From: Dichotomocladium elegans
Lineage: Eukaryota; Mucoromycota; Mucoromycetes; Mucorales; Lichtheimiaceae
Length of the DNA: 64,000 nt
NCBI GenBank assembly: GCA_025716815.1
Contig: JAIXMN010000038.1
Coordinates: 62,001 to 126,000, forward strand
Direction of reading: 5' to 3'
The notes beneath the pieces are model-generated. The model had not been told where the DNA came from. It saw only the letters and a list, made by a program, of their open reading frames with translations, and searched no databases. Shown one piece after another: positions 2,775 to 58,475 of this stretch (the first letter of the stretch is position 1; every line of letters begins with the position of its first letter). The translations under genes and the position numbers were made by a program.

Positions 2775-4830
2775 CCGAACTTTTGAGGCAATATAAGTAG
2801 GTTGGGAAATTGTGGGCTTCATCGATGTCAGAGTATGCGATAACGGTCTTGGCGAGCAGCCGGCAGGCGGAGACAAACAGCATCCAGTGCTGGAAATAGC
2901 AAGCAGCAAGGACACCTTTTAAAACAAAGGGAGAGTAGACCAGACACCATGCCTTCCAATCGTCTGCAGTCATAAACCCGAATTTTCGCTCTATTTTGCG
3001 GTTCAGGGACGGAATTCCAGGCAGCAGCACAACTCCATCTGCAAGCTTCTGCATTTCGACACCGTCTGCGGCAGTGAGTAGCCCATGATTTCGCCATAGT
3101 CGCACCATTCGTTCAGCAGTTCCGAGAAAGAGGTTGTGCATTGGGTCAATAATGGAATCTCGAACAGGATCGAAATAATGGAGCCGATGAATCTGTGACC
3201 AGCGCGTGCCAGTAGCACGCTCAACGCGAATGCAACCTGCTGGCGTTGTCTGGGCTAACCACTCCTCCGCATTACGTGCATTAGCCGCCTTTGTTCTTAA
3301 ATCGCCATTAGTATGTCCAGAGTAGTCAAGATCCGAAGTGCCCGTGAAAATGACAAACTCGCGAGTGCACTTGTTGCATGCTCTGGTACTGTTGTGCGAT
3401 GTGAATCCCCCGACTTTGCGACTAGCTGGAATGTCGCACGCAATGTTAAACAATGCTGCGCATATGGTTGTTCCGCTTGGAATTTCAAAGGTAGGAATTC
3501 GGATTCCATTGTAGAGTTCAAGTAAGTCATCGACAAGTGGCTGCAAATAATGGTTCATTTCGTAGGTACTTGGCTCTTTTGGCCCAGGCATGACACCAGC
3601 AAGGATCACATTCTCAGTTTTATATCGCTCTGCGCGAGGCAAGTTGTTGACGATAAGGTAGATTGCACCGCATGAATACCCACTATCAAAAGGGGCAAAC
3701 CAGTCGACGTTCAATGTAAGCATCAACGAGCGAGGAGTTTCGACAAAAGGAAGTCCATTGTCTGGATTGTGAAGAGAACGCCATCGTACGCCGTCATAAA
3801 CATCGCTGAACACTCCTGGCCGGTATTGACGATGCTCCCACTCTGTTATCTTCTGCTCAAAGCCTTCTCGTTTGAAAAGCCGTGCCAAGCTTTGACGAAG
3901 TGGATAGTAGGCATACTGCTTGATCGGTATCCGATATATGGATTGCTCAACGTCGACTTCAATAGTGTGGTGCCGCAAAGATCGCCATTCATGCGCCGAC
4001 TTTCATTTATGCATGTTTGGGGGCCAGGCAACGGGTAAATGGCATGGCGTTTGGAGCATGCACTGTACATTTGGAGATCATTTGTGAGACGATCAAAGCC
4101 AATCCATTTTCGCAAGCTTGTGATTGTTTCTGGAACCAAGAGGAAGGGATTATCGGTAAAGGCTTGAACCAGTGCGACAGCAAAGGTGATAAGGATGGCT
4201 GCTACTCTCAGACGTGTGATGTAACTGGAACAGCACGAGGAAGACAAACGCGAACAACAGAGGGTGAGGAATATGATCAAGGATACTGGCATGGGTGGTC
4301 GGGCGCTGGTCTAATGATAATATCGTTAATCTAACCCCTTTTTTTCCTTCTTTTCTTTTACAAACCCTCTTCATCGTCAACAATGCGGTCAAACTCAATG
4401 TCAACGGCTTCATTTAAATCGTCATCTTCAGCAATGTCATGTTCAATGTCGAAACTTTCAACCGGCAGTTCTCCTGTTGTAAAAAAATCAGTATTTGTTT
4501 CTGCTTGTGACCACTGGCGTTAACATACCGTTGTCCAAGTTCTGACAGATATTGCCTGGCGTCAGTCTCACTATTGACATCGCCGTCAAGTTGCATGGAT
4601 GTATCACCATCTATTTTCGGCATATCAGTTTGGCTGCTTTTAGTACCACACGCACCATTCATTATCTTACCGCCACCGTGGCTTGAAGCAACAATAGCAG
4701 CTGTAGCCGCTCGCGCACTAGCCTGAATATGTTCATTATATGTTCGCTCCGTCACATACGCATATCCCATCTCAGGATTTCGGTGCACGCATAGTGAGCA
4801 AACACAAATATGGGTTCTGTTGTTGGTCAT
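2775..4830 (-). pseudogene. Plavaka/tnp2-type (CACTA-like) transposase, frameshifted and 3'-truncated
   Basis: The N-terminal piece (4830-4414) has the zinc-binding start seen in this family (ICVCSLCVHRN, then a His after a G-Y-V-T stretch) and an acidic linker. A middle piece (4292-3960) has the hydrophobic segment and the Cys cluster ending LCGTTLLK. The core (3978-2775) carries VYDGVRWRS, LTLNVDWFAPFDSG, a PRAERYKTENVILAGV block, and DPMHNLFLGTAERM, all typical of Plavaka/tnp2. The middle and core pieces are in different frames and join by a one-base slip near 3955. The exon junction near 4480-4530 also does not keep frame. The C-terminus, including the last conserved region, is missing beyond about 2775. 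An inactive relic. Confidence 0.75.
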
Positions 4831-4868
4831 GGTCGGCTGTACTCAGAAAGGTAAGAGGTAAATAATGA

Positions 4869-5235
4869 TACAGGATTTTCAAGAAGAAGTTTGCCACAAA
4901 ATTTGGTTATTGGTATAGACCATCTAGGTTTTTCGTTTTTTTTGCTTCAAATTCGAATACAAATTTTAGTATTTCGTTGCTATCTTTTTGTCAAAATTTA
5001 AAGGCAATAGCAGCAAGAAGTTTCAGTTAATGCTACCTAATTCTTCCTTAGTTTCTTTTTACACCAGAATAGTTTTGGGAGGCTAAACCTTCATGTTTCA
5101 TTCAAATTTCAAAGAAAGAAGAGAAGCGAAATACTAAAATTTTTATTCGAATTTGAAGCAAAAAAAAACGAAAAACCTAGATGGTCTATACGAACAACTA
5201 AAATTTGTGGCAAACTTCTTCTTGAAAATCCTGTA
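4869..5235. mobile_element. Fold-back MITE, family A, copy 1 (TA duplication)
   Basis: A 363-bp near-perfect palindrome whose ends read CAGGATTTTCAAGAAGAAG and its reverse complement, bounded on both sides by TA. The inverted arms are about 110 bp or longer. The middle contains GGCAATAGCAGCAAGAA. A TA duplication suggests mobilisation by a Tc1/mariner-type transposase. No transposase is encoded. Related copies lie at 9705, 22781, 26989 and (half) 60180. Confidence 0.85.
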
Positions 5236-6114
5236 CAGCGTTCTTCTGGTTACAGTGCTACCATTATATACCTTTTGTCCAAGCTATAAATAAAAACCAA
5301 ATACTTCAACCTGAATATCATATTGTATCTTTTCTGCCTTGGCAGACGCAATCATTCGTCTTGGCAAATGCAATCATTCGTCTTGGCAGAATATATTGGT
5401 TTCAATCGGTCATCATGGTCAAAGCTGTTGGTATTACACGTATATGACACAAACGAGCTTTTTTGGCACTTGTGCCCATATTGGCTTGGCAGCTCTATCT
5501 ATTAATAGGAAGTTTTCATCAAGCACCTTAAAACCCAACATGATCATTCCTCAGAAAGGCAAAGCGTTTATTTCTTCTCCTGTTTGTGGCTGTATCCCCA
5601 TCACACAAACGTCCCTTGGCAATTTTTCTTAAAAAAAAATGGGAAGTCGCTTATGAAAGCGGCATCCACTTCCATTTTTATTCGTTGCACGTTTCACACA
5701 CGCAAAATTGGCAGCCAAAAACTGACTATGGTCCCCCCGCTGAATATTCTCAAGAATAACACCCTTTTCCTAGTGGGTTATTCCTCACTCTGGGCGCAGT
5801 GTTCTACTACAGATGGTAGGCACTTTGCAATTAGACAAGATGTAAAACCGAAATTACTGAATTGCGGACAGACGAGCTCAATTATGCGGAAATGAAACAC
5901 TAATTCCGAAGCTTAGTAGTCATTGTGCCAGCCATTACTTGAGTTGCCCTTTCAGAGAACAATGTCGTGCATCAGCAGTTGGAAAGGAATGCGATAGATC
6001 TTGCTTGGTGAGCAACAAGTAAAAAAAAAAAGAAAATACAGGCAATATGGTCACAAATATGGATGGAAATTTTTGGGGGACACACCCAATTTTTTCGAAC
6101 TCAACCCTTTATGG
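5236..6114. other. Non-coding stretch before the G1 LTR; short tandem repeat
   Basis: No convincing gene. At about 5338-5390 a 21-bp unit containing GCAATCATTCGTCTTGGCA is repeated in tandem (two full units plus a part). Small open frames here have no motifs. Confidence 0.4.
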
Positions 6115-14133: not shown

Positions 14134-17100
14134 ATGGTAAGTTGTTTTGTTTTTGGAATTTTTTATTACCACGAGAAACCTTTTTAAATTAATGATGATT
14201 TTCTACTCAAGGGAGATCAACCTCCAACACGAACTTGCATCTGTGGCTCTTCCACACACCTGCGTACATCGTTTTCCGCCTGTCCATTGAATAGCCGAAG
14301 AATTCGCCAGAGGACTGAAACTTCTAATAATGTATGTATGCCTCTTTTTTTTTTCTGGGAAAGTTATTCAAAAGTTTGCATTTTTGAAAGCGTGCTAAAA
14401 CCAAAATATATTTAGAGTTTGGCGATTATTGTTCCATCGCAATATAGTCCCATACCTTCCTGTCCGGCCTGTGGCTCAACAATTCATCTACACCCAACTG
14501 ACCACGATTGCCCTGTAAACATTTCGCACAGGCGAGGTAATTTTCGTTCTACTCGCATTTTTTTTTTTCACTTTTTATGCTAAAGATATCTTTATGTGAT
14601 CACTCTCAAGGCGATCTTGCATCTACTGCCCCTGCTCATCCTCCTTGCGTTCGATGCGGCTCCCCAACTCATCAGCGTTCGTCTTCTCGCCAATGTCCTT
14701 TCCATAACAACAATAATCCTCAGTATCGCATTGCAAGAAGAGACCCATTCGAGCCAACGAATATTTTCGGGCCAAACATCTGTTATACCGAAGGACCACA
14801 GTACCGACGCCACATCTTTGAACGCATGTCAGCAGAATGTCCATTCTGCCACGCTAAAATGTGGATCCACGAGCGCCTCGCCAATTCGTCTCTCACGAAT
14901 CCACGTTTTGGATTGTGCTGCACAAGCGGAACGGTCCAGCTTACTCTGCCTCGCGCCCCATCGCAAGAGATCATTGCGCTGCTGACGGGAACAGATCCTG
15001 CTGCAGTGGAATTTCGCACGTCAATTCGCGCCTACAACAATGCCTTTTCCTTTGCTTCCATCGAGGATAACCATGACAGAGAACTTGCCAATGGTTCAAA
15101 TGGCGTGTCAACCTACCGCGTTAATGGCACTGTATATCATCGCATGGGAACATTGCGCGCTGGCACGAATTATCCGCCGGCTTTTTCACAGATCTACTTC
15201 ACCGACCCTGACGAACAACTGGCACGACGAACCTCTCTCTTTTCGGATCTCAACAGAGATACAGTCGAGCTTCTCCAGGTCGTCATGATGCGCGACAACC
15301 CCTACGCGCAGACATTCCTCTCTGCTTTTGAGCGCTATCAAAACGAGCCTTTTGGATCGCTGCGTGCAGTCATTCGTCCTGCACACCGGATGGGAAGGCG
15401 GTACGACCCACAGTCTACTCCTGAGGTGGCAGCATTGGTCGTTGAGAGGACAACGGACGGCACCGTCGACACCCACGCTATTGTTCTTGCTGACCGCGCA
15501 ACAGGAGGCCTCCACAGGATAAGTTCTCTCCACCCGGCTTACATTCCTCTTCACTACGTTCTCATGCACCCGTTTGCGGACGAGGGATGGTATGCCGGGA
15601 TGGAAAGCCGGACAACTGAGGGCAGCACTACCAGTGTCACTCTGCGCGAATTTGCTGCATACATGCTAATGATTCGACAAGGCCCAAGGCATACGTACCA
15701 CCACTACTTTGGCAGGTTGTTTCAACAGTTAGTGGTCGATAACTATGTACGGATCGAGGGTAGCCGCCTGCAGTATTTGCGAAGCAACCAGGACGATCTC
15801 CGGCGAGAGTTCTACAGTGGGATGGTGGACGATATAGATCCTCGACAGCTCGGCCAAAGAACCATTTTGCCTTCAAGCTTCACTGGCGGCCCGCGCTACA
15901 TGAAGCAGGCAATGCAAGACAGCTTGGCAATCGTAAGCCAGCTGGGTGACCCAACTCTCTTTATCACTTTTACTTGCAACCCGAAATGGCCCGAGATTGT
16001 CAATGAGCTTCTCCCAGGCCAGAAGGCCCACGACCGACCGGACATTTGCTCCCGAGTTTTCAACATCAAGATGAAGGAGCTCATTGCCCATATTGTCGAC
16101 GGTGAAATTTTTGGCCATGTCGAGGGCTATATTGCGACGGTCGAGTTCCAAAAGCGTGGGTTGCCGCATGTCCATATGCTTTTTATCTTGCAAGAGAACG
16201 ATCGCCCAGAGACGGTAGCCAAGTACGATGAGTTTGTTTGCGCAGAGTTGCCAGACCCAGAGATCAACCCCATGCTTTATCGGACTGTCACAGCGACCAT
16301 GATCCACGGACCTTGCGGACAATTTAACAGGGGGCAGTCTTGCTGTGAACGAACAGGCCAGTGCGAGAAAAAGTTCCCAAAGAGATATTGCGGTCAAACA
16401 CGTGTGACCGGAGATGGAAATCCAGTCTATCGCCGGCGGGAGACTCCCAACCGAGGGCATCTTATTCCAAACCGGGGCATAATTGTCGACAATCAATGGG
16501 TTATCCCATATAACCCATATCTCAGCCACAAGTATGACGCGCATATCAACGTAGAGATCTGCACCAGTACCCGGGCAGTAAAATACATTTGCAAATACAT
16601 TACCAAGGGAACCGACAGGGCTCAGGTCGAGATATCTCGCGGCCAAGTTTCTCAGGCGGTTGCCTCTACAACCATTACAGCTGCCTCTGCCTCCGCCTCT
16701 GCCTCTGATTCTGATTCTGATTCTGATTCTGACTCTGATTCTGCCTCTGCCTCTGCCTCTGATGATCCTGCTACCGCTCCTCCTCCTGTGGACGAGATCC
16801 AAGAGTACCTCGACGCAAGATACATCGGGCCCTGTGAAGCAATCTGGCGGACACTCAGATTCGATGTACACTTCCATAGTCCGCCTGTGATCCGCTTAGA
16901 TATCCATCTACCTGAGCAGCAGTACGTCATATTCCGTCGGTCAATGTCCACAGAAGAACTAAACGCAGCACGTCATGCGGCAAGATCGGGGACCAAACTC
17001 CTCGCCTTTTTCAGCCTCTGCTCCACCGACCCATTCGCCGCAAACCTCCTGTATTCCGCCATCCCCCGCCACTACACTTGGGACAGCAGAAACCGTGAGT

Positions 17101-19169
17101 GGAGAAGAAGAGAACGGCAGGAAATAGCAAACGTAGTATCCCGCATGTACTTTGCATCACCGTCCAATATGCCCCTCTACTGCCTCCGCTTACTTTTGCA
17201 AAAGATACCAGGTCCGACAAGCTTCGATGACCTACTCGCGAATGGGGTCGGTGCTCCACACCCGACCTTCCAGGCTGCTGCTCTTGCAAGAGGTTACTTG
17301 GAATCTGACGACGAGTGGGAACAGTGTATGGCGGAGGCATCGCTTATTGCTTCTGCGGCATCCTTGCGCGCACTTTTTGTCTGCATATTGATCCACAGCT
17401 CTCCTGCTGACCCGTTGCAGCTCTGGAACAACCACCGCGAACGAATGGCGGACAATTACTTTTTCGAGTTCCGACGGATCCGTAATATGCCCAGTGAGCA
17501 GGACTTGCAGCAACAAGACGTGGATATCATCTACCAACGCACGCTTGGCGCCATTGACTCGATCATGCAGGCATCAGGCCGCCGCCTCTCGGATTTTCCG
17601 ACCCTGCCCCAGGAGTCCCGAGACACCCTCGAAGAATCCGTGCCACCGGCTCAAGTCCTAATCAATGCCGAGCGCACGCAATATGATCAGTACGACCAAG
17701 CCTTGCAAAATGCCGAATTGGTTCATACCCTCAATGATGACCAGAGAGCTGCGTACAATGCTATTGTCACATCAATTGCTGAGCAAGCCAGCAACCCTCA
17801 TGTACCGCGCATTTTCTTCATCAATGGTCCCGGCGGTACAGGAAAGTCGCAAGTCTTTAGAGCTCTCTTGACCCATGTACGCGCTCAACAGGAGATTGCG
17901 TTGCCTGTCGCCTCATCCGGCATTGCCGCAATTCTGCTTCCCGGTGGCCGCACAGCTCACAGCCGCTTCAAGATCCCACTCGATCCAGACGAAACAAGCA
18001 CCTGCAGCATTAGCCTGACCAGCGCACACGCGCATCTCATTCAAAGTGCTTCTCTGATCGTGTGGGATGAGGCCGTCATGGGTGGCAAGTACTCCTTTGA
18101 GGCCGTGGACAAGACCCTCAAGGACATTATGGGTGCAATCGACCCTCCCTGCGAACACATTCCCTTTGGTGGCAAGGTGGTTGTCTTTGGCGGCGACTTT
18201 CGCCAATTGCTTCCAGTTCTCAAGAAGGGTACACGCCCAGAGATCGTCGCTGGCACCATCCAACGCACTACGTTCTGGCGCCATGTCCGCATTCTGCATC
18301 TCAACATCAACATGAGAGTGCGAAATGCCGGTCCTCAAGCTGCTGCCTTTGCTGACCTGCTCCTTGCTGTTGGTGATGGAAGGCCACCATACCACGAGAG
18401 CTTCGAGATCCCGCAACAGTGGCGTATCGAGGCCAACGACAGCATGGATCTCATTCATGTCATCTACCCTTCGATCCGCCTCCCAAACCAGCCATCGGTT
18501 CAGTTCCGCGATGGTGCTATTCTTGCCACCAAGAACGCCGACGTTGACGATATCAACAACAAGGCTTTCAGTGTCTTTCCCGGTGAAAGCAGAGAGTACC
18601 ATTCCCACGACCGCATCATTGACGCCGATGACCCAGATGTAGCGGCATCAAGCTACCCTCCAGAGTTCCTCAACAGCCTCAATTCCTCAGGTGTTCCCCC
18701 ACACTGCTTGAGGCTAAAGGTGGGTATGCCTTTGGTGCTGCTCCGAAATCTCGACCCCGCTGCAGGCCTCTGCAATGGCACCAAACTCATCCTCACGCGG
18801 CTTATGGACCATTGCATTGCCGTCAGATCCATTGCCCATGGCCAACAGGGCGTGGAGCATATTATTCCTCGAATCAACCTCTGTACCAAAGAGGGCGAGA
18901 TGCCATTTGTCCTGTGCCGTCGCCAACTGCCTGTTCGTCCCGCGTTTGCAATGACCATCCATAAGGCACAAGGCCAAACACTGTCCCGTGTGGGTATTCA
19001 TCTTCGCGAACCTGTATTTACACACAGGCAGTTATATGTCGCACTGTCACGAGCAACAAACCCTGACAACCTGCACGTGGCAGTCTATGGTGATATGACA
19101 GCTACCCACCCCGCAACAGCGAATGTGGTGTATCCCGAGGTTCTTCTCCGCCAGTCGACCTCTATATAA
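14134..19169 (+). CDS. Helitron Rep/helicase (HUH endonuclease plus PIF1 helicase), apparently intact
   Basis: Four exons: 14134-14136 (only the ATG), 14212-14331, 14416-14536 and 14611-19169. All have GT-AG introns and keep phase, giving 1,600 residues. Exons 2-4 each start with a zinc-knuckle-like motif C-x(1-2)-C-G-S-x2-H-x7-C-P (CICGSSTH, CPACGSTIH, CVRCGSPTH). The Rep domain has GLPHVHML (the HUH histidines) and VKYICKYITKG (the two-tyrosine motif). A Ser/Ala/Asp repeat linker leads to the PIF1 helicase: GPGGTGKS (Walker A), IVWDEA (Walker B), TIHKAQGQTLS, RQLYVALSRAT. Helitrons transpose by rolling-circle-like strand transfer. No stop or frameshift is seen, so this may be an autonomous element. 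Confidence 0.92.
16676..16768 (+). repeat. TCTGAT/TCTGCC microsatellite encoding an S-A/S-D linker
   Basis: Hexanucleotide repeats encode alternating Ser-Ala and Ser-Asp between the Rep and helicase domains of the Helitron. Reading frame is preserved, and length variation would change the linker by two-residue steps. Confidence 0.85.
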
Positions 19170-20988: not shown

Positions 20989-21936
20989 AAAGAGGGTTTG
21001 CTGCAATCACAGTGAAACATCGATACGAAAGGACTCGTTCTTCTACAAGCGCAATGCACCATTAAACAAAGTCCTATATGTGATATGGTGCTGGGCAACT
21101 TCTTCCAGCCTAATCCATATTAGGCAAACTGCTAAGCTCAATGCCAAGACAATTGCCTCAATTATCCAGGATATCTACCAAGTGATTGAGGCAGACCTTG
21201 TCCATAGTGATATGCAAATTGGTAAGTGTTTATGTGGAAGCAGATAAACTATTATAGTGTCTCAAACAAAGAATAGGTGGTGAAGGAGTTATTGTTGAGA
21301 TTGATGAGAGCAAGTTTGGCAAACGCAAGTACCATCATGGCCACCATGTTGAAGGCGTTTGGGTGGTTGGAGGAGTTGAATGCACTCCTGAACGAAAGGT
21401 GTTTTTGACAATTGTTCATAATAGCACAGCACAAACATTAGAAGCAATAATCAAGAAGTTTGTTCTTCCTGGGTCAATTGTTTATACAGATTGCTGGCGT
21501 GGGTACAACAACATCCCCAATTTGGAAGGCTACAATTTCAGCCATGAAACAATTAATCACTCCCAGGAGTTTAGTCGTGGTGAAAATATCCATACAAACA
21601 CAATTGAAGGTATTAAATGTATTAACCTTGGCTTTAACCAGTTATTAAAATTTCTGTATAGGAACTTGGAATGGAATCAAGTTAAATATTGTACCACGCC
21701 ACAGAACAAAGAAAATGGTCCCTTGGAAGCTAGCTGAATACATCTGGCGCAAAAAGAACAAGGGAAACATCTGGGATGCTTTACTTAAAGTATTATCTGA
21801 AGTGTCTCTGTCAGAGATATTAAGCAACCAATATGGAGATATTAGTGAAGATATTTGGACTGCTTTTGGTTATGAATCTGACGAGGAGATTGATGAATCT
21901 GATGAGATAAATAGTACTGCACTATTTGGATCATGA
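20989..21936 (+). pseudogene. Merlin (ISXO2-like) transposase, copy E, lacking the N-terminal exon
   Basis: Three exons in phase, 20989-21221, 21277-21609 and 21662-21936, give 280 codons to TGA. The first covers SPKRVCCNHSE and SFFYKRNAPLNKVLYVI. The second has the catalytic set VEIDESKFGKRKYHHG, VYTDCWRGY and HTNTIEG. The third has WNGIKLNIVPRHR, PWKLAEYIWRKK and an acidic tail. All three DDE residues are present and there is no internal stop. No in-frame start exists, because sequence upstream of CCCAAAGAGG is replaced. Most complete Merlin catalytic domain in the window. Confidence 0.85.
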
Positions 21937-24376: not shown

Positions 24377-25725
24377 TTATTCTTGATTCCCCCGCATTTG
24401 CCACAGATGATGCGAAAGGTCTGTTCGTAGTTGCATGTACATATTCCGATCCTTGATCATCCTGTCGCGGCCAGTCAACTCTTCAAGATTATTGTTATCT
24501 TGACGGGAAACCAGGGCAATAGGATCTTCTTCGTGAAGATATTGCGGGTCATCATCGTCGCGCTCATCCTCGACGATCATGTTATGCATGATAATGCATG
24601 CCTTCATGACCTTTTCAAGGTCGGAATGCTTCCACAATCTTGCTGGTCTGGAAATGATCTGGAAGCGGCCTTGAAGAACCCCGAAAGCTCTCTCGATATC
24701 TTTACGTACGCTTTCATGGACGGTAGTAAAATACTATAAAGAAAACAACCCCATATTAGAAACAGATATACAAAAATAGTGTAGCTACATACCTGTTCGC
24801 GCTGTCCTCTTGGTTCAGCGTACGCCTGAACAATAGTCGACCATTTTGGATATATTCCATCCGCCAAATAGTATCCCATCGAATACTTGTTGTTGTTGAT
24901 AGTGAATTCGACAGGAGGGAGACGTCCAGACGCGATGTTATCCATTAAATTGGACCTATTCAAGACATTGATATCATTCAGAGTTCCAGGTTGCCCAAAA
25001 AAGGCATGCCAAATCCATAAATCGCTTGAAGCAACTGCTTCAAGGATTACTGTTGGCGCTTTCTCCTTGCCGGAAAACTGGCCGTGCCATGCCGTTGGGC
25101 AATTTTTCCATACCCAATGCATGCAATCTAGCGAGCCAAGCATTCCTGGAAAGCCACGTTTGGCATTCGCTGCCAGTATCTTCTCCAGGTCGGATGCATT
25201 CGGGGAGCGAAGGTACTGGGCACCAAATACGTTGATAACGCCAGAACAGAACCGCTTCATAGCCTCCAACCCGGTACTTTCCGCCATGTCAAAGTACTCG
25301 TCAAACATATCAGAGCTCGTGCCATAAGCCAGCTGCCTCATGGCCATCGTCGCTTTCTGGAGAGCCGAATGACCGAGCTTTCCTGCTGCATCAGTTTTCT
25401 GACGAAAATATTCGTCATGGTCCTCCAAAGCGTTTACAATTCGGAGGAAAAGGTCTCGGCCCATCCGAAAACGGCGCCGGAAGCGGTTGGCTGGATACCT
25501 TGGGTATTCAGCAAAGTAATCCTGATAAAGCCTTTCACCGCTCTGAACACGATCGCGGTGAATAGTGCGGCGTCCTGGTACAGATCCGCCTCTCTTAGAT
25601 GGATATTCCATTTCTTCGCGTTCTGCTTCAAGCAAACTCCGGATACGCTTTTGGTTATTGCGCCAGTATATTTCCTCATCATCTGCTTCAGCAAAAAGTT
25701 CTGCTAGCTGTCTTGGGGTGGCCAT
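24377..25725 (-). CDS. PIF/Harbinger DDE transposase
   Basis: Two exons, 25725-24793 and 24733-24377, with a 59-bp GT-AG intron, encode 429 residues. Residues around 85-100 (FRRRFRMGRDLFLRIVNAL) and LGHSALQKATMAMRQLAYG form the helix-turn-helix region. GMLGSLDCMHW (first D), GTLNDINVLNRS (second D) and, in exon 2, ESVRKDIERAFGVLQGRF (E) are the DDE_4 catalytic set. KACIIMHNMIVED is the conserved C-terminal block. The frame is full length for the family with no defect. The intron ORF (VCSYTIFVYLF) is not coding. Confidence 0.92.
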
Positions 25726-26718
25726 TTCGAAAAGTAAGAGAAAGAAAACAAAGGTCTCTCTAAATTTAGCAGAGATATACCACTGGGGAATAAAGTTTCT
25801 TAGCTAAAATGGGAAAATAGCGGACCACTAGGGAAAATTGAATTTTTTAAGGTTATTGCTAAAGATGGCAACATGTCTATGTGGCTTTAGAATAGAAATA
25901 CCGCTGGGGTTGCTCTTAGTGGCCAAGTTAAGATGATCAAGGACCTTAGCCAGGCTGCTGGGGAGGTGGTCCTACCTGCCCTCACATACAGGGAATTGAC
26001 TATTAGCGGTTTGTCAAGGGCTTCCACTATTGCATCCCTTGAAGGGAATTTTGCCACAGCAATGCTTAACAAGTCTGTCATGTGGATATACCTCAGGGCA
26101 CTGCATGTGAAGAAAAGGGGAGTTAACCCTACAAGGGCAAGACAGTTTTGCAGTACTTTCCTCTCAGGTGAGTAGATAAAGTTTTCTCTAAAAAATCTAA
26201 CAGTAAAAGTTAGGAATAAGCACTAGGACAACATTGTATGCCCTAAAGGGAGCTGCTAGGCTCATCCACCTTATGAAAGATATTGGGGTTACACGTCTCT
26301 TGTACCCTGACACATTTGGGGTGATGAAACTTGGGAGGGTAAGTGAAGGTCTATTTGTAACTATATAGTATCTAATCCTTCTATAGCTCTCAAATGAACA
26401 GTTTGCCCAGTTTACTGAGGTTGTTAGGGAAACAGAGCATATTTTAGCTCTTAAGGATATTCCTATAGCCCAAATTGGTCCCCACCTCACTCCTTTACTC
26501 AATGCAATCAAGGATCTTATCCAACATTTACCCTAGTATGCTTTATATTTATACCCCATTCCACTCACTACCCACTCTATACTATTCTATGTTTCCCACT
26601 ATGTATATGTATTCCCCTTATGCCTTTTATAGTTATCCTCCCATATTTTCAATATATAACATAAACTATTATCATTCCTATTTCAATCTCTTTCCTTCCT
26701 CTAACCATATTTTCTAAA

Positions 26719-26988
26719 ATGATCAGTTGTCTTGCTCTCACTGGTGCATTAATTCATGATGTTGAATACCCATCAACCCCTTATATGCAGCAAGGGACTA
26801 TTACCCTTGGTGTTTATGCACGATTTAAGATTAATTGGGATGGACATTTCTTTAATGTCTATGTGTTGCAGCCATCGCACATTAGTTGGCTGCTAAACAA
26901 CAATGTGCATGCCAGTTCCTCAGTGATTGTCAATAGGTGGTTCAAAATCCACAACTATACCACTAGTCGCAGTAGCCATAGTGTCTTG
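26719..26988 (+). pseudogene. SSB-like OB-fold protein, copy 2, truncated by MITE A
   Basis: ATG 26719 opens 90 codons similar to the N-terminus of the protein at 54359-55152: both start M-x(4-6)-LTG, then D-x3-YP, F-x-V or F-x-I strands, I-x2-LL/FL, SSVIV against SAVVV and Y-x4-R. It follows gene Y copy 2 by 182 bp in the same orientation. MITE A enters after SHSVLY. LVIS, matching the next strand, can be read after the MITE in another frame. An OB-fold SSB identity is inferred from the other copy. Confidence 0.5.
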
Positions 26989-27356
26989 TACAGGATTTTC
27001 AAGAAGAACTTTGCCACAAATTTTAGTTGTTTGTATAGATGGTCTAGGTTTTTCTTTTTTTTTGCTTCAAAATCGAATACAAATTTTAGTATTTCGTTTC
27101 TCTTCTTCCTTTGAAATTAGAATGAAACATAAATGGTTGGCCTCCCAAAACTATTCTGGTGTAAAAAGAGGAGAAGGAAGACTCATCTATAGCCTTGATT
27201 GAAATGTTCTTGCTGCTATTGCCTTTTAATTTGACAAAAGGGTAGCAACGAAATACTAAAATTTGTATTCGAATTTGAAGCAAAAAAAACGAAAAACCTA
27301 GACCGTCTATATGAACAACTAAAATTTGTGGCAAAGTTCTTCTTGAAAATCCTGTA
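26989..27356. mobile_element. Fold-back MITE, family A, copy 4
   Basis: Same CAGGATTTTCAAGAAGAA ends as the other copies, with TA at 26989-26990 and 27355-27356. It has the inner segment in the opposite orientation to the copy at 9705. It interrupts the SSB-like copy 2. Confidence 0.88.
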
Positions 27357-48975: not shown

Positions 48976-49294
48976 ACCAGGCATTCGCAATTCTGACGAT
49001 TACTTGCATTCTGTGGCAACTTCTGGTGCAGCGAATCAGCTTGGCATCAAAAGGCCTTCTGTTATAGGAGGTGTTAGTTGTGGCCGCAGTCGTGGCCGTA
49101 GTCGTGGCCGCGGTCGTGGCAGGGGCAGGGTAAGTGGGCAGTTTCCGCCGCAAAGCAGGAGAAGCACAAATACTAGAGATAATGAGCAGCAGACTCCCGA
49201 GCCAACGAGATTGCTGAAGAGAAGCAGGCCGACAGAAGAGGCAGAAGACCTTGGTTCCAGAGGTCGCACTATTCGATGCACGTCGCGCCGTTAA
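48976..49294 (+). pseudogene. C-terminal fragment of an unidentified gene with an RG-repeat
   Basis: Directly after the LTR a frame reads PGIRNSDDYLHSVATSG, IKRPSVIGGVSCGRSRGR, then Arg-Gly repeats and a basic, polar tail to TAA 49292-49294. RG repeats commonly bind RNA or DNA. It may belong to the same gene as 39861-39995, on the other side of G3, but the two do not join in frame directly. Confidence 0.35.
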
Positions 49295-49558
49295 AGGTGT
49301 GTGTTGTTATAAGAGGAGACTCTCATGGATGCAAGCAATGAAGTTAACACTGCCGAGAATACATAAGTGGGAGTAAATGATTGCATTTTCTCTAATAAAT
49401 GCTTAAATTATTGAAGTAAAAAGACATTGGGCAATAAAATCACATCAGTCAGAATACCTGCGTTAGGATTTACAGTATTGCATACGAATCGTATACTTGC
49501 AGCAGTGAATATAAAACTCATCAGAACAGGTTCAAACTCATTTAAACATATAACTGAT
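49295..49558. other. Short AT-rich spacer
   Basis: No coding signal. Leads into the hairpin at 49559. Confidence 0.35.
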
Positions 49559-49589
49559 AACTGATTATGAACTTAGGCCATAATCAGTT
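49559..49589. terminator. Perfect 11-bp hairpin at the end of the Helitron-like gene
   Basis: AACTGATTATG, a 9-base loop, then CATAATCAGTT. It overlaps the last codons and stop of the helicase frame. It could be the 3' hairpin of the Helitron-like element or simply a transcript end structure. No CTRR follows on the minus strand. Confidence 0.4.
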
Positions 49590-52500
49590 TCAACAAGATC
49601 AGTTCTGACTTGGTTTTAACAAGTTCCGATGAGTTCAATTTTCCCACAGTGATATAGTTGACCATGCTGGAAAAAGTCACTAAGGAAAATAGATATAGAT
49701 GAGATTGTAAGGCTTTGCACTTTGTGAACTGTGAGTGCCCATGCAAGCTGGATTGGAAACTGTGTCCTTTCATAGCCAGTATAGGGTACATCTCTGGTGA
49801 TGCGCACTACAGGTAGTGACTCAGTAGGGTTTGAAATTTTGGATATTGTTATAGTAGTCTGAGAAAGACTTGTGATTATGCATAGTGTTCCATTGACCCA
49901 TCCATTTGGTACACTAATATTGTGCAGCAACATCACCTGAGAGCCAACCTTTAGCTCAAGTATCTAGAACAGTATTTAGTATGGTCATATAGCCTGTTAG
50001 AAGTAAAGATATACTTGCTTCAGGAAGGTAGGTGTGGTTTAAAGCAGTCCTTGCTGCAGTCTGGAACCCATCAGTTTTATCTGTTGCAACATATGTAAAG
50101 ACTTGTCCAGGTAGTTTCCCTAGGGCAGTTCTATTAAAGCTTGTAGCGGACTCGCGTGTATGGGTAATGATAAGACTCCCAGGATTGATGTTTGATGAGT
50201 GTATAGTCCTAGTAGAGAGCAAGTTAATATCTTCTTCATTAAGATTATTCAGCCGCAGATGTTGAAGTAAACTATAGAATTGTAAATCAGTTTGGCGACA
50301 TGGATGATAGACATGTTCAACTACTAGATGTTGAAAGAGGTTGGCATGTGTTACTGGTAGCATATCTTGTTCAAAAGGAAGCATCTGTGCAAGGTCACCA
50401 AACATACATACTGGGATACCACCCCAATCATGTGTAGACTTTTTTGCTATTTTACATGCATTATTAAGAAGATCAAGAAGGCTTGCTGAAAGCATACTTA
50501 TCTCATCAATAAGGAATATCACCTTACTGTGCAGCTTAAAGAACTCATCAACTCTTGTATGGTTGATAGTTGATTCCACATAGTTGATACCAAAGAAGTG
50601 GTGGATAGTAACTCCTCCAATATTGTTTGCTGCTACTCCAGTAAAAGCAAGGCGAACTACTTTGAAGTGCATAGACTTGAAATGCATAGCTATTGTATCC
50701 AGAACAAAGCTCTTACCTGTACCTGCACTTCCATTGATTAATACTGGTGTACAGTCATCAAGGTGCTCTAATGCATTACTATAGGCACAGTATTGTGATG
50801 GAGTAAACTGTGAGACTCTTTCACTTGCCATAGCTTGTAAGGTTACTGTGTTTTGTACTGAGGTACTAATATTACTATCTACAAACTGGTAGTTAGTATC
50901 AGCTTCAGCAATTGTACTGTAAGCGGAAAGTGTGGCACTCTCAACTACTGAAGTTTCTAAAGGTTCAAGTAAACCCTGTAGTACAAGTGCATCATGACAT
51001 CTTTGGTAAGTGGAGTATTGCTCCAGATCAAAAACATCTGTTAGGTGTCTAAAGGGTACATTTAGTAGAATACGTTGATAGAAAAATGCCTCACCAGCAG
51101 AAATAGGTAGATGCCTAGTTCTATAAAGGATTGGAGTACCACGTTTGATCCATCTTCTTCCATCTGTACCAATGAATGCATCATCAAATGAGTCTGACAC
51201 TAGACGGTAGTTCATGAAAAACTCTGGATATGTGAGCTGCTCTGCATTAGTTATTCCTCTTGGCCTTTTCATATATTTCTCTGGTAAAAGCATAAGGTGA
51301 GTGAATACTAGGACATATAGTAACTACATATTACCTTGCTGGGTATCATATGTAATCCTTTCTGGGTTATTCTCATCTAAATGTTCTTTACGTCGAATCA
51401 CACGCCATTGGTTAGTAGGCATATTAGTGTCAAGGAAGAGTACTTCAACTGATGCCTGCTGTTTGTGCCAACCAAAGATATCATAGACTGCTTCAATAAT
51501 ACTCAGCTTCCTAGCACGAAAATGTGTTAGGACATGGTTAGTGTTACCATCTGCATCAATAACCACATGGTCCCTTCCAGTATCAAACTTGGTAAGATAT
51601 TTGCAGAGGTATGAAAGAGCATGGTATCCCCTATTAAGCTGGATATCCATATTGCACTTTGTAACTGCAAGGAGCTCAGGATTATAGGGGTTGACAAAAA
51701 GACTTTGAAAATCCCTAGGATAATAATAGCGATGCTCATCATAGTATGTGTGATTAGTGGGAAGGAATGGGAAACCAAATCTACACTGACCATTTGATGT
51801 CTTAGTACAGTAGTCAGTGCATCTATGTATTTGATGCTGCTGTACAAGCTCACGTAGATTTGATCCAGAGCCTGGTGCTGGTAGCTGGGCTGTGACAATG
51901 TTAAGTGCTGCTAGCTCCTCCACAGTTTTGTTTGTCCAAAGGATACAATGTATATGTGGTGATCCACGGGCTTGTACTTCCATTACCCAGAAAAAATGCT
52001 TAATACCACCTATCATATTTGCCCAGGTATGGCGAATAAACTCCTGCCAAAGCTTCTGCCATTTAAACTGGAAGTGTTTAGCAAATAGAACAGGGTCATC
52101 CCATGGCTCTGTACTATTCACTGCATTAGTCATGTCATTTGCAAAGTCATTACAGGTAAACGTCATAAATATTGTAGGTGCATTATACTCCCTGAACATT
52201 GCCATTAGATCAAGGTATGCCTTGCGCTTGTAGGCATATGATGAACGTACTATATAAGGAATAGCTGAGGTGATATCTTCACGAATATATTGCTTATTGG
52301 TTTCAGGGTCAATATGGTAAACCCCATTTTCACTTAACTCTCTAAGATACTTGTGGTGGACAACACGTGGGCTATATCCATGGACTGCTAGTTTTTCAAG
52401 CATGTCAGCTGCAAAAAAAATAAAGGTTGGGGTCCTTGCAAAGCGCCTGTCATGATGTAGAAGCAACTGTTTAAAGTATTTTTTGGCTGTCCCCTTATCT

Positions 52501-53409
52501 TTAAGATTGAAGTGTGCATCACCAAGAGTATAGAGCCAAGGGAACAGCAATGGTAGTAACTCAGGATCACTATACTTGATGTCAGTATGCCCATTAGTAG
52601 CCACTTTCAGCTTATGGAAAGCTACGTCATGATCACCAGCACTCGGAGGTATATTGTCAATATTAGTAGCCATATTAATATTCCAGCCCATATTATTCAT
52701 AGGAGCAGAAACATCTTGCACAAAATATCTTACTAGCTCTTGGCTTACCTCTGGTCTATTATACTGACGAAGTAATGGATTTACTACTGTAAGCTGCTCC
52801 CAAGCCTCTGCAACCTTTGTTTTGTTTATTACTAGTACTTTCTATTAGCACAATGTTTTATCACAGTAAGAGAAATATACCTGAGTGGGTCTCTCGCCCA
52901 TATACTAGACCCAATGTCCCATTGAAAACAAGACCAGCATATTCATAGTTATACCTTGCTGACATACTACCTGTCAACTCAAAATGCCCAAGGATTGCAT
53001 AGGAACGAGACCTCAGTCGAGTAATCTGGGACATAAGCTTTAAAGGAGAAAGGCACCCAAGCTCACGGTAGTTCATTGTTAAAGTTGCAGGTATCGTTGG
53101 GCCAACAAATGGGATAACGCGTTGTGCTCTACTAGTAGGTGAGCCTTTCAAGCATGTCTCACACACAATTACCTGTCCTCCCTTACAAATGGGTGGAAAC
53201 CCCCACTCTGTACATGGGATTGGAACTGGAAGTGAACTTAAAGGAAGTGCCTTTGCTTCCTTTTGATAGAGTACTATGCAGCAGTTTGCACAGTACAGTG
53301 ATGCTACCTGGTTGATATATGCCTGATAGATATCAGGTGACCGATGGGCAGCAGCAGTAAGGTTAATAGTAACAGACATAAGGAAAAGGAGGGCTACTGT
53401 AGTTCCCAT
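49573..53409 (-). CDS. Divergent Helitron-like Rep/helicase, multi-exon, possibly frame-damaged at the 3' end
   Basis: Exons 53409-52881, 52831-51335 and 51280-50015 join in phase (introns 49 and 54 bp). The N-terminus has a zinc-finger-like set (LYCANCC, VIVCETCLKG) and a Helitron-type LSPLKLMSQITRL region. Rep has GSPHIHCILW (HUH) and LSYLCKYLTK (two tyrosines). PIF1 helicase: NGSAGTGKS (Walker A), VIFLIDEISML (Walker B). The last part, from 49964, reads LKVGSQVMLLHNI and LAWALTVHKVQSLTI, but its junction with exon 3 is out of phase by one base. A further shift falls at HGQLY. About 1,200-1,300 residues. Clearly a different lineage from the 14-19 kb Helitron. Confidence 0.82.
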
Positions 53410-53463
53410 TTACACTTTGCTTTATATGAAATTAGTACCAGTCACAATAGATGATCTCATTAG

Positions 53464-54078
53464 CTAAAGTAACATAAGATCATCCAAAGCTGCATTGATA
53501 TCTTCTTCAAGATCAAATGCTACAGGCACTTGGTCAGTAGGTGTAATTGATGCTTCTAGCAATACATCACTAGTAGTAGTGTCAATGCGTTGGCGTTGTG
53601 CCTCTGAGGCAGATGTAATCCCAGCTTCACTTGCACGACGCCTATGTGCCTGTGATAAAAAGATATGGCCACCAGGATGCCGGACAGGGATCGTAGTGGT
53701 TACTACTGCATCTGCATCTACCTCTGGTATAGCAACATTTGCAGCATGCTGGGACATAAGTTTTTGCTGGACTGCAGCTGGTATTGCAATTGCTTGGGTG
53801 ATACTTTCAAAGGTAATAATCTTGATCCAAATAGAGCTAGGATACATCCAGCCTTGCACATCATCAAAGTCAATGGCATCCAATGCTGTAGCAGTGACAT
53901 TGAAAACCCATGCTTGTGGTGCAGTGTTAACTACCCTTAGGAATGCCGCCTGCTGTTCAGCCTCTGGAAAAATAATGACTTTCTTGACGCTAAATAGTAA
54001 CTTTAGGTAATGTCTATACCAAAGAATAATGGCCTTACTTGTTGCTTTGGATTGAATATCCAACCACCTTTGTGACAT
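53464..54078 (-). CDS. Gene P: unknown 204-residue protein upstream of Rep
   Basis: One clean frame, stop only 54 bp before the Rep start codon and in the same orientation, so probably part of the same element. I see no known domain. The N-terminal 100 residues look globular (FPEAEQQAAFLRVV, WIKIITFESITQAIA). The C-terminus has basic QAHRRRASEAG and ends in an acidic patch (FDLEEDINAALDDLM), like tails that contact partner proteins. The start codon choice is uncertain. Confidence 0.55.
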   Translation of the reverse strand: MSQRWLDIQSKATSKAIILWYRHYLKLLFSVKKVIIFPEAEQQAAFLRVVNTAPQAWVFNVTATALDAIDFDDVQGWMYPSSIWIKIITFESITQAIAIPAAVQQKLMSQHAANVAIPEVDADAVVTTTIPVRHPGGHIFLSQAHRRRASEAGITSASEAQRQRIDTTTSDVLLEASITPTDQVPVAFDLEEDINAALDDLMLL

Positions 54079-54358
54079 GAGAGCCTTGACTATTACAACT
54101 AATAGTAGCAGGTGTTAAATAAATAGTGTAGTGGGACATGGAAAAAAGGGAAAGAAGAATACTAATTAGATGCTTAGCATTACACAGCTTATATAGCCCT
54201 AGTGATGGTATGCCACTACCAGCCACAGTAAGGGTGGGCAGCCAAATGATACATGTGATGGCATGCAGTTTTGTTAACCACCTAGTCTTAGGGTATTAGC
54301 AGTCAATAAAGATACATGGTAAAAGATGTAATCATTCTTCATGGTGTTTTATAAAAAA

Positions 54359-55152
54359 CTATTCTTCCATACTAATTCCAGCTAAACTACTAGCAGAACT
54401 AGTTGGCCGTGTGGAGGGAAGTGAAGAAGGGGGAACAAGAATGTCATTAAGTAGGGTAGTTGCTTGGCTAATAGTAAAGCCTTGGGGTAGTTTAGTTAAT
54501 AGTAGTTGGGGGGTAAGTGTCTCATCTCGAGCAACAAGTCGCTCACAAAACTCTTTCCCAATTGCTCTAAGTAACTCCAATGGATGAGCCTCAATGTTTG
54601 CAACAGCAATGGAATCGTTTAGGCATCGAAGTATAGTGGTTTCAGCTGGTGACAGTTCTGATTCTTGAACATTGCTTAGGAGATTTGCAGCGCGGAGTCG
54701 TTGTGCAATATTATCAGATGTTATATTTGGATCACTTAGACGTTCTGCAGCCTGGGCAACCTATAATTTTTGTGAATCATTATAAGCAAACGTTAGTCCA
54801 GCCTTAATGAAAGTCAATAGAGAATACTTACATTGATGGATACACTATGTGCTAATCGAATCCTTGTAGGAGAGATAACTAAAGATTGCGTCCTGACACC
54901 CCTTTGGTTCAGGTAGCTATCTACCCTTAGTCTTCCCTGAACCACAACGGCACTACCATCACTGATGCGATTGTCTTGTAAGAATGCAAGGATTCTTGGG
55001 ATGCTTGATGTTACGCGGAAGTACGCCCATTCAGCCGACACTGAGAATGTTGCAGTGATATTATCCTTAAGAACGCCATCCACCATTCGTGGGTAATTCA
55101 CCCACTTTATATCGCGGGTAACAACACCAGTAAGTCCTATGACAATCGACAT
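54359..55152 (-). CDS. SSB-like OB-fold protein with C-terminal extension
   Basis: Two exons, 55152-54832 and 54760-54359 (71-bp GT-AG intron, phase 0), encode 240 residues. The first exon resembles bacterial/mitochondrial-type single-strand DNA-binding proteins: start IGLTGVVTRD, central AEWAYFRVT, then ILAFLQDN, GSAVVVQGRLRVDSYLNQRG and LVISPTRIRLA, the (K)G-S-x-V-x-V-x-G-R-L pattern of the SSB OB fold. The second exon adds about 130 residues of unknown role (LSPAETTILRCLNDS, FCERLVARDETLTPQL) and ends with a short acidic MEE. Lies between genes Q and P, upstream of the HUH Rep, in the same direction. Identity as SSB is a pattern call; a search should decide. Confidence 0.55.
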
Positions 55153-55394
55153 TATAAATAAGAGTAAAGGAAGGACACCAAACTCCAATTACTTTAAAAA
55201 TTCGAGTTGCTTTATACTGCAATCCTATAGAGATTTTACAACACTTGAACCGTTTAATTGTACATGTAGCACCTTCTGAGTTAAAGTTCTTTTCAATCGC
55301 CATTCATCACTAACTGCTTATGAAATCTTTTTCCATTTTTGTACACCACAAAGCAATGCGGCTTTTCTACAAAATCTCTGTGTTCCCTTTTCCT

Positions 55395-55573
55395 AGGTTC
55401 CACACTAAGTGTCAACTACACTTTCACGTTCTGATGCAATGCTCCTGGATTTGAAATAGTCGCTCAGCTTGTACACACTCGAAAATGACTGCGTTCACTT
55501 TTCTCTACGTTCCAGACTAAGCGTCAACCACACTTTCACGTTCCGATGCAATGTTCCTGGATTTGAAATAGTC
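55395..55573. repeat. Pair of 67-bp direct repeats between genes Q and SSB
   Basis: 55395-55461 and 55507-55573 share TTCCACACTAAG/TTCCAGACTAAG, CACTTTCACGTTC and CTGGATTTGAAATAGTC, about 90% identical, 112 bp apart. They lie in the only long spacer of the cluster, upstream of the SSB-like start codon. Role unknown; possibly regulatory or origin-like. Confidence 0.6.
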
Positions 55574-55742
55574 TTATAGGTTGTGGATCAGTTTCACTTT
55601 GGTACCTGGATCATCTCCCATATTTGAAAAAATTATTTTCGGGGATGGATCTTAAAGGGAGAGTGAATTTTTTTGATATGTATGAAACTTGTATGTGTTT
55701 GTTTTCCCCTGTGCATTATTTGATTAACATTTGGTTGTATTA

Positions 55743-56965
55743 TCAAATGGATTTAGCATGATCTATAAGCTGTTGGAGCTGTGGATGTAGGGGTGGTGTT
55801 GTGACGGTGGGGGCAATATCTCGCCAAAGTTCCAAGCCATCATTGAACCCTTTTTTGTTGGTCTAAAGTTAAGATTAGTTGGTGATTGTGAAATCCTGGT
55901 ATATATGACATACTCTGGCAAGCCTTGTAATGCTAAAGACCTGTGGCAGGAGGAGGGCATATGGTGAGATCTTCATCATTTCAAAGAGGCGAGGAGCACC
56001 TCGCAACACAAAGGTCTCCCAGGTATCTTGTGTTACACATACTACAATAGTACTGTTAGATTTGCTTTTTTTTGTAGCTGGTAGCTTACTATTAATTAAT
56101 TGATTAACAAGAAGCTCTTGTGCTTCTTGTTCTTGACCATTTGTAAGCAGTGCATTGTACAAAATGTATACATTTGTGTACAGCTTTGCCTGCATGTTCA
56201 ATGCCTTAATAGAAGGTGGGTGAGGACCCACCAAGGCTTCAATTGCATTTCTGCCACTAGAAATTGTGGCAGCAGAGAGTAACACCAAAGAGCTTGGGAG
56301 CTGCTGCTGTGTATACTCTGCTACATCAAATGTAGCAGATAGCTCGCTCATGACTCTACACACACGATCAACATCAACTAAAGCACTAGAGAGTGCCCTA
56401 GGAAACACCCCAGTGTAGGTAACAGCTCTGGCCTCAGGTTTAGCAGTCTGGGTGGAAGCCTTGTTTGTTTTAAATATACTGAGTATATAATATTAATATA
56501 AAGATATTGCTTACCACTATGAGGCGACGTTTTCTCTGTGGTGGACCTGCAGGTTCATAGTCCCCATTTTCACTAGCAGAATCCTGTGCAATTGTTTCAG
56601 GGGTAGTGTGTTGCACTACACTCTCTGGACTTTGCACATTATCCTCCTCTACCATATCTGATATGGTAGGAACAGGGGCTTCCTCCACAGATGCAGGGCT
56701 AGGAGGTGCAAATTCATGGACCTTACATAAAGCAATAAGAAAAAGTCCACTACCTATACTGTAAACTTACTAGCACATCCTCTGCAACTTCTATGGGTTC
56801 ATGGGCTACCTTCACTCTAGGCTGCCCATTTACCCCAATTGTGTCCAATTGGAACCCAAGGTAGGCAGTATGCCAGTTTTCCTCAGCAACATGGACTTGA
56901 ACATTACTAGTACGGATAAACTCCGTAATAGTATCAAGTGCCTGAGGGAGTGCTAATATTGTCAT
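55743..56965 (-). CDS. Gene Q: unknown four-exon protein
   Basis: Exons 56965-56771, 56721-56515, 56459-55941 and 55862-55743, each a multiple of three, give 346 residues through canonical GT-AG introns of 49-78 bp. The N-terminus reads MTILALPQALDTITEF, followed by an acidic, Pro-rich linker and PPQRKRRLIV (nuclear-signal-like). The C-terminal half is helical (SSLVLLSAATISSGRNA, YILYNALLTNGQEQEAQEL) and ends DGLELWRDIAP. No family recognised and no second copy in the window. Clean multi-exon coding with no stop argues for a functional gene. Confidence 0.65.
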
Positions 56966-57402
56966 TAGCTTTTAACTTCAAAATAGATATTAGACATACT
57001 TAAACTACAGAGGAAACTGAGTACAGTTTGGTTAACACCACCCTCGTTTTCTCTTCTATGGAGTTCAGAATAATCCATGGCGTTCAAATCGGGAATTCAA
57101 TAAATTTCGTGGGAATGCAGAAGAGCAGAGAAAGAGCAAGAAAAAAGTGAGTAAGGAAGATATACTGCAGTGGTACTAATAGATCGGAGCACCAATTTTA
57201 TAACAATGAAAAGGGTTTTAAGGGAATGGTTTTGATATTTCTTTACATAGTAACAATACACCCAATTTTTACTAAAAGTTAAGATTGAAGAAAAAGGGGA
57301 TAACTTGGTTCTCTACAGTGCCTATTGCACAATTGCCACTTGCTACTTGCATGTCAAAAGTATTTTCAATATTTTAGAATATAAGGGAAGTAGGAGTACT
57401 AT

Positions 57403-58475
57403 TTATAGTGGAAGGCAGGTGGTAAGGTCTTTAAGAGTACCATATAGGGGGCCAAAATAGCTGCCTAGGTGTGCTATAGGAATGTCCCTAAGTGCTATTA
57501 TATGAGGTGTAGTTGTGCACACCTTATAGTACACCTCAAACTGAGCGCCTGTAAGCTACACAATTATTAGTCCATTGTGATATAGGTTTAGATAGTATCC
57601 TTGCCTTTCCAAGCTTTTGAACGCCAAATACATCAGGGTAGAGAAGGAGACATGGGCTAAGCTCCTTCATCAAAAAAAGAAGCCTTGTTGCTCCAGACAT
57701 TCCAACTGTAGTAGCACTTCTACTAATACCTGTATAGAACTAGTAAGTAAGAATATAAGTACACTAAAGCTACCTACCAGAAAGAAATAAACTGCAGAAC
57801 CGCCTAGCACTAGTAGGGTGATGCCTACTTTCCTTCTGATAAAGGGCCCTGAGGTAGACCCACATTATGTTCTTGTTTAACCTTGCAATTGCAAGGTTAC
57901 CTTCTATGGTTGCCAAAGAAGTAGCACTAGACAGGTGTATACTAGTGAGCTCCTTGTAGGTAAGTGGAGGGAGCAACACCCCTTCACTTTGGCTTATAGC
58001 CCTACTAAGAGCAGCAACTTGTCCAGTAATAGGAAGCATGGCTACCTCTGCCATTTCTATAAAGTTATAAGGTTAAGTGATGTATACAGTTTTTTAATCA
58101 ACTTCTTACAAACCTTGTTGCACTTTGGTCCTGTACATAGAACCAGGGAAAAGAAGAGTAGGGCTGTTATGCTCCTCAGAAACAGTTTGGCTGTGCTCTT
58201 CAACCAGATCCATTTGTTCCTCTGGCACAGTAGCAGGCTCAACTTGAGTTGGAGGTTCTTTAACCAGTAGTTCCTATTATATAAGGTTTAATTTAAGCCA
58301 AACATACCTTAGTGAAATACCTTTTGCAAAAGCTTGATACCATGGGTTGTGGCCACTCCATTAGAGTTAGCTACCTCATAGCTACCTTTCTTAGCCCCTT
58401 TTTTTAGGGAAAGGGAGTTCCTGGAACAGAAGTGTAGAAAATACTCTGCAATCTGGATTTGGGCTTCCTCTGGTT
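57403..58475 (-). CDS. Gene Y, copy 1: unknown protein, 5'-truncated
   Basis: Exons 58475-58321, 58273-58114, 58056-57778, 57729-57605 and 57555-57403 join in phase. The last intron uses a GC donor (GCAAGG). The product includes FCSRNSLSLKKGAKKGSYEV, an acidic linker, then the conserved part AEVAMLPITGQ, LPPLTYKEL, MWVYLRALYQ, LLYPDVFGVQKLG and ALRDIPIAHLG, shared with copy 2 at 23243-26536. KGAKKG and the all-helical conserved part might suggest nucleic-acid binding, but no family is recognised. The first exon(s) are lost where the 783-bp repeat begins at 58521. Confidence 0.65.

Follow-up and report, generated by a model that had tools for sequence, protein, structure and literature searches.

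Helitrons probably require assistance with the single strand that they displace, and a locus of the fungus Dichotomocladium elegans (Mucorales) raises the question whether one lineage of these rolling-circle elements carries such help with it. The analysed stretch, called the window here (64,000 nucleotides; C55:62001-126000 of the 39.4-Mb genome), holds five genes, Y, Q, SSB (single-strand binding protein), P and Rep/helicase, in that order and on its minus strand; gene coordinates are window positions throughout. We consider it probable that these genes represent a Helitron-like rolling-circle lineage of D. elegans in which an HUH/Y2 Rep-Pif1 protein is accompanied by a dedicated SSB of bacterial type and by two to three proteins specific to the lineage (P, Y/Q). 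Exons were predicted from reading frame, splice signals and homology, which gave the following gene models.

49652..53409, minus strand: Rep/helicase (HUH/Y2 Helitron_like_N plus Pif1); exons 53409-52881, 52831-51335, 51280-50019 and 49963-49652; 1200 codons to the cut
53464..54139, minus strand: P; exons 54139-54039 and 53989-53464; 208 aa; matches no known family
54359..55152, minus strand: SSB; exons 55152-54832 (OB, oligonucleotide/oligosaccharide-binding, region) and 54760-54359 (C-terminal region); 240 aa
55743..57078, minus strand: Q; five exons, 57078-55743; 377 aa; matches no known family
57403..~58520, minus strand: Y; exons by hand; 5' end cut by a 786-bp repeat

Four of these models (Rep, P, SSB and Q) were checked after splicing, and each is open, without internal stops; Y was spliced by hand only and stands outside this set. 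An earlier note on this DNA had described five co-oriented minus-strand genes with small, consistent introns and a 54-bp spacer between P and Rep. The frames, splice signals and homology bear out the five genes, the spacer is present at 53463-53410, and the nine introns of the four checked models measure 47-71 nt (eight GT-AG, one GC-AG). The lower limit of 49573 given in the same note does not hold for Rep, since Rep homology stops at 49652, where a repeat also present elsewhere in the genome starts.

Domain content of the five predicted proteins

The window Rep matched Helitron_like_N (7.8e-32), PIF1 (1.3e-20) and Pif1_2B (6.4e-10) in Pfam, with the Pif1-type superfamily 1 (SF1) helicase fused C-terminally to the Rep domain in one open spliced frame. 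When Rep was aligned with Helraiser (PDB 7lcc; 2.2e-15), the HUH motif (GSPHIH / GLPHAH) and both tyrosines (YLxKY) were in register, and Helraiser was the only solved structure found by the Rep part at E up to 0.001. Rep is, by these motifs, a Helitron transposase. It shares 23% identity over 402 columns with the ordinary Helitron Rep of the same window, and in a tree of 23 rows (19 loci that were fetched and four that we read ourselves, not all of the 38 genome matches; C65 and C89 left out) the three cluster Reps (C55, C100 and C72) formed a separate clade with 100/100 support, apart from 20 ordinary Helitron Reps.

The diverged C72 copy keeps the 54-nt Rep intron, C100 reads GT at the donor of the window's GC-AG intron, and the first Rep intron is 49 nt long in the open spliced model. 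An in-frame TAG at 51322-51324 (CAG in C100) was considered as a nonsense mutation and rejected because it lies inside the Rep intron conserved in C72. We also rejected P as an N-terminal part of Rep, since P and the N-terminal exon of Rep are separate open reading frames (ORFs) with a spacer between them, and each is found again on C72 and on C32. For the Cys-rich, zinc-finger-like N-terminal region of Helitrons, CxxC-like pairs were noted by eye in Rep 52881-53409, where there was no Pfam match. On C100 and C65, Rep continues to its C-terminus ~50 aa past the window cut point. No C-terminal endonuclease was found in Rep among Pfam and solved-structure matches (the C100 Rep ends ~50 aa past the cut). 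The predicted element is a Helitron by its transposase, and with no such endonuclease found it does not group with the Helentrons.

The OB-region exon of the window SSB scored 21.1 bits (3.3e-4) against the Pfam SSB family (PF00436), below the cut-off of 26 bits, as did P0001 (16.8 bits) and the C32 frame (19.7 bits). Two relatives passed it, P0005 from the same genome (29.3 bits) and P0004 from an ENA contig of 2276 bp (26.9 bits). A profile built from four SSB sequences found bacterial SSBs in PDB, the best being 5yyu (E 1.2e-4, residues 1-97), and no RPA family, and so no RPA DNA-binding domain, was among the Pfam matches of the cluster proteins. The earlier note had called the protein bacterial/mitochondrial in type; the sequence profiles support SSB. 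We class the cluster SSB as predicted bacterial type, not RPA, and its family suggests that it binds single-stranded DNA. A separate mitochondrial-type SSB gene lies on C1. The SSB intron is also present in C65 and C100. Among the best 8000 candidates scored from a database of 5.8 billion proteins, in a search that needs shared 5-residue words and that distant relatives can escape, relatives of the element SSB came only from D. elegans (four proteins) and P0004; a search for phage records with SSB gave none.

The remaining proteins form an accessory set (P, Y/Q); the libraries that were searched contained no family matching them, and P matched no solved structure there either. In the same protein database, under the same word requirement, P had relatives only in D. 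elegans (two proteins). P was also considered as a relative of SSB, without support (profile comparison probability 0.2%). At all six loci found, P relatives adjoin Rep or its remnant. The Q protein has an acidic middle and a basic KRRR stretch, with relatives at C64, C65 and C32, and the Y exon 57770-58072 has relatives at C65 and at window 25903-26172. Because a C-terminal motif is common to Y and Q (z 4.9 for the whole proteins and 6.2 for the C-terminal parts, with 0/300 shuffles as high in each), the two may be paralogues.

Recurrence, selection and recombination

The SSB gene was found at no fewer than seven loci: the window copy on C55, C65, C89, C100, C64 (degenerate), C32 and C55:88.7k (window 26.7k, degenerate). 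Every one lies within 5 kb of another cluster gene, and all loci found (7 SSB, 6 P, 3 Y and 4 Q, counts that are lower bounds) lie within 10 kb of one. The earlier note had named host loci carrying SSB, P, Y or Q without Rep as the case against a single element; no host locus away from the cluster was seen among the loci found in the genome. Sequence no farther than 12 kb from a cluster-type Rep makes up about 0.4% of the genome. C89 and C100 are 98% alike, the flanks compared included, and may be one locus counted twice. The degenerate copy within the window is as follows.

25900..26990, plus strand: a second cluster, degenerate and from the other subfamily; a relative of Y (Y_C65 86%), then the 5' part of SSB (SSB_C32 64%); cut by another short repeat

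All five genes stand in the same order in C55 and C65, and the order SSB, P, Rep is found in both of these and in the diverged C32, where Rep is represented by its N-terminal exon. Between the subfamilies, identity is ~55% for Rep, ~35% for SSB, ~30% for P and ~40% for the Rep N-terminal exon. A comparison of the cluster within the genome, as had been proposed, gave a gene order conserved in two subfamilies but no constant element ends.

Ratios of nonsynonymous to synonymous substitution rates (dN/dS) were all below 1 in the comparisons that yielded one (those whose dS was saturated or zero did not), and the lowest were those of SSB and the middle of Rep. SSB exon 1 gave 0.087 between window and C65 and 0.043 between window and C100 (dS saturated), and exon 2 gave 0.073 for window and 0.078 for C65, each against C100. 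With ratios of 0.04-0.09 in three within-subfamily comparisons, SSB is under purifying selection. For Rep, the middle part gave 0.075 against C100 and 0.26 against C65 (two changes), the helicase 0.16-0.29 and the C-terminal end 0.32-0.63 where defined; the Rep N-terminal exon gave 0.13 between C72 and C32 and 0.17 and 0.23 between subfamilies. The ratios for P were 0.24 against C100, 0.29 between C72 and C32 and 0.38-0.57 between subfamilies, those for Q were 0.23-0.32 (0.23 against C65; 0.54 against the degenerate C64), and those for Y were 0.13-0.31.

Per 100 bases, identity between window and C65 is 97-100% from ~54900 to 53973, and it stays at 99% onward through Rep; it drops to 83-85% for the SSB exon upstream and to 43-81% farther upstream. 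This sharp step marks recombination that has exchanged the Rep side, with a breakpoint at ~54900 inside the SSB gene. The window copy is, moreover, damaged at both ends (Rep 3' end at 49652, Y 5' end at ~58520). The repeats next to its genes are listed here; the last two lie outside the element.

55371..55573, minus strand: two-copy direct repeat upstream of SSB; ~111-bp period, copies 88% identical
48976..49651, no strand assigned: repeat cutting the Rep 3' end; long terminal repeat (LTR)-like (a putative label); matches on C66, C32 and C68
58518..60086, no strand assigned: tandem pair of the 786-bp repeat cutting Y

A stretch related to the direct repeat was found upstream of P in C100/C89. 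The first 180 bases of the 786-bp repeat have at least 26 further matches in the genome.

In C100/C89 the layout differs: P-Rep is followed by 158-bp and 81-bp repeat arrays, SSB, inverted arrays and an ORF that resembles the N-terminal part of Q (1/500 shuffles as high). Downstream of Rep, homology ends at L070:790 in three further places, on C100, C89 and C65. The main C100/C89 copies run into a 158-bp array at that position, which lies 18 nt after a 6-bp CTGGCA/TGCCAG inverted repeat, and the C65 main copy diverges earlier. L070:790 is a candidate 3' end of the element. A query with one 158-bp repeat stretch gave at least 210 matches, three of them being the Rep 3' region alone.

The 158-bp arrays occupy L070:791-1971 and 3255-5297 and occur in both orientations around the C100/C89 copies. 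They are found on many contigs (C4, C10, C11, C17, C18, C40 and others), all below coordinate 92,000 among the matches listed; the telomere pattern TTAGGG x4 was not found in the assembly. An inverted Rep C-terminal fragment lies upstream of the C100 copy (L069:5656-6079), with 3'-flank relatives at C89 and C65.

Proposed mechanism and rival explanations

As is known for the family, Rep would nick one strand at the element end and Pif1 would unwind 5' to 3'. From its family membership and conservation, we infer that the element SSB would coat and protect the displaced strand until Rep joins it to the target, independently of host RPA. P and Y/Q may be helpers: we would guess at a partner of SSB or Rep and at an acidic, KRRR-bearing factor acting in the nucleus. 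The earlier note had proposed a multi-gene rolling-circle element with its own SSB, and the conserved SSB-P-Rep order together with the lack of any host locus among those found supports that proposal.

Several observations weigh against it. Neither element ends nor target sites are established for the cluster; no 5' end was found, and CTRR, the 3' ending of canonical Helitron1, is absent at L070:790, the 3' homology limit. No copy was seen with all five genes complete: C32 lacks a helicase and keeps, in this order, SSB, P and the N-terminal exon of Rep; C72 has P and Rep, and the 3.7 kb seen upstream of its P contain no SSB; C64 and the surroundings of window 26.7k yielded no cluster Rep. In C100/C89, SSB lies downstream of Rep among satellites, so that a fixed unit is not seen in every copy. 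Some dN/dS ratios are higher, namely 0.85 for P against C65, 0.45 for the Rep N-terminal exon against C100, 0.34 for SSB exon 2 between window and C65 (few changes), and 0.32 (window) and 0.43 (C100) for SSB exon 1 against C32, where dS is saturated. In the AlphaFold2 model of SSB, strands and helices follow one another as they do in an OB fold, but confidence is low, with a mean predicted local distance difference test (pLDDT) score of 45.5; the model of P is unusable (pLDDT 34.6).

Some of these points would be expected if a compact Rep(-P) Helitron had repeatedly landed beside, or captured, a host or mobile SSB/Y/Q cluster in which SSB has no role in transposition. Helitrons do capture genes, as the available text of PMC4289320 describes. 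Repeat arrays separate P-Rep from SSB in C100/C89, the SSB loci on C64 and at window 26.7k stand without a cluster Rep in the vicinity, and the identity step near 54900 (97-100% on its 3' side, 43-85% on its 5' side) gives the Rep side a separate recent history. Such captures would nevertheless have had to produce matching gene order and orientation in two subfamilies that share only ~55% identity in Rep, no host source of SSB, P, Y or Q was found, and SSB dN/dS stays below 0.1 in three comparisons; we regard this explanation as unlikely. Simple chance in a repeat-rich island could be invoked since these regions are dense in ordinary Helitrons and other repeats, with ordinary Helitron Reps ~5-13 kb from three SSB loci. 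Because SSB-P-Rep recurs in a second, diverged subfamily and all seven SSB loci found adjoin cluster genes, however, the cluster is, as far as sequence can tell, no chance neighbourhood, and coincidence is most improbable.

Alternatively, the genes could be parts of a larger multi-gene replicon that resembles a plasmid or derives from a virus, works with a Helitron-type Rep in satellite-rich regions and is no strict transposon. The multi-gene make-up, the permuted order in C100/C89, the 158-bp and 81-bp arrays between genes and the missing fixed ends would suit it. Against it, no capsid, polymerase or other viral gene was recognised among the cluster proteins scanned, a Helitron is the closest solved structure to Rep, and no relative was found in viral contigs (of the pattern searches for viral contigs with Rep and SSB, one gave no match and another matched 23 stretches, none of them a relative). 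We hold this to be very unlikely. Quite unlikely, too, is an autonomous fungal multi-gene rolling-circle replicon, with its own single-strand-binding and accessory proteins, that replicates as a circle and re-inserts in permuted form among satellites; if true, it would link Helitrons to plasmid-like replicons.

Apart from the cluster, the window carries a 1542-aa open frame at 14541-19169 on the plus strand, an ordinary Helitron Rep/helicase with near relatives elsewhere in the genome. We take the ORF at 21258-21737 (plus strand) to resemble an ISXO2/Merlin-type transposase and that at 24604-25803 (minus strand) to resemble a Harbinger-type nuclease.

Comparison with known Helitrons and single-strand binding proteins

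Helraiser is a single-gene transposon and a proven active Helitron. The cluster Rep is like it in the HUH motif and the two catalytic tyrosines and has low sequence identity to it. With the bacterial SSB family (PF00436; 5yyu) the cluster SSB shares a profile match over residues 1-97, whereas here the protein is the product of a fungal transposon gene with an intron and has a different C-terminal region.

The available portions of PMC4683698, PMC4067079 and PMC5148889 describe RPA-like genes for the Helitrons of plants and for Helentrons. The plant elements with such genes (Mothra relatives, PMC4683698) resemble the D. elegans cluster in joining the HUH/Y2 Rep-Pif1 lineage to a gene for a single-stranded DNA-binding protein, and Mothra, in the same partial text, also holds tandem-repeat blocks like those around the cluster. 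Theirs is an RPA homologue, whereas here a bacterial-type SSB with an extra C-terminal region is found, together with P and Y/Q. In addition to Rep/helicase, Helentrons likewise carry further genes, RPA and OTU protease among them, according to the portion of PMC4067079 available. The D. elegans cluster differs in that no C-terminal endonuclease and no OTU or RPA match were found, and a bacterial-type SSB stands instead. FoHeli of Fusarium and HELPO1 of Pleurotus are fungal as well, with additional genes described as Helitron-only; in the accessible parts of PMC5148889 and PMC4289320 no bacterial-type SSB is described for them, and the former gives the Fusarium Helitrons as lacking RPA-like genes.

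In a partial coverage of the literature, without Repbase, no earlier description of a Helitron with a bacterial-type SSB was found. Our verdict is that the Helitron variant is new and that its SSB would parallel the RPA of plant Helitrons and Helentrons. It adds to the Helitron repertoire an accessory gene set (P, Y/Q) that has no family match, and it opens to experiment the question which single-strand protein works in Helitron transposition, since a single gene could be exchanged or deleted. If the proposed reading is true, a bacterial-type SSB kept by selection in a fungal lineage would be an independent solution to a need that is met elsewhere by RPA.

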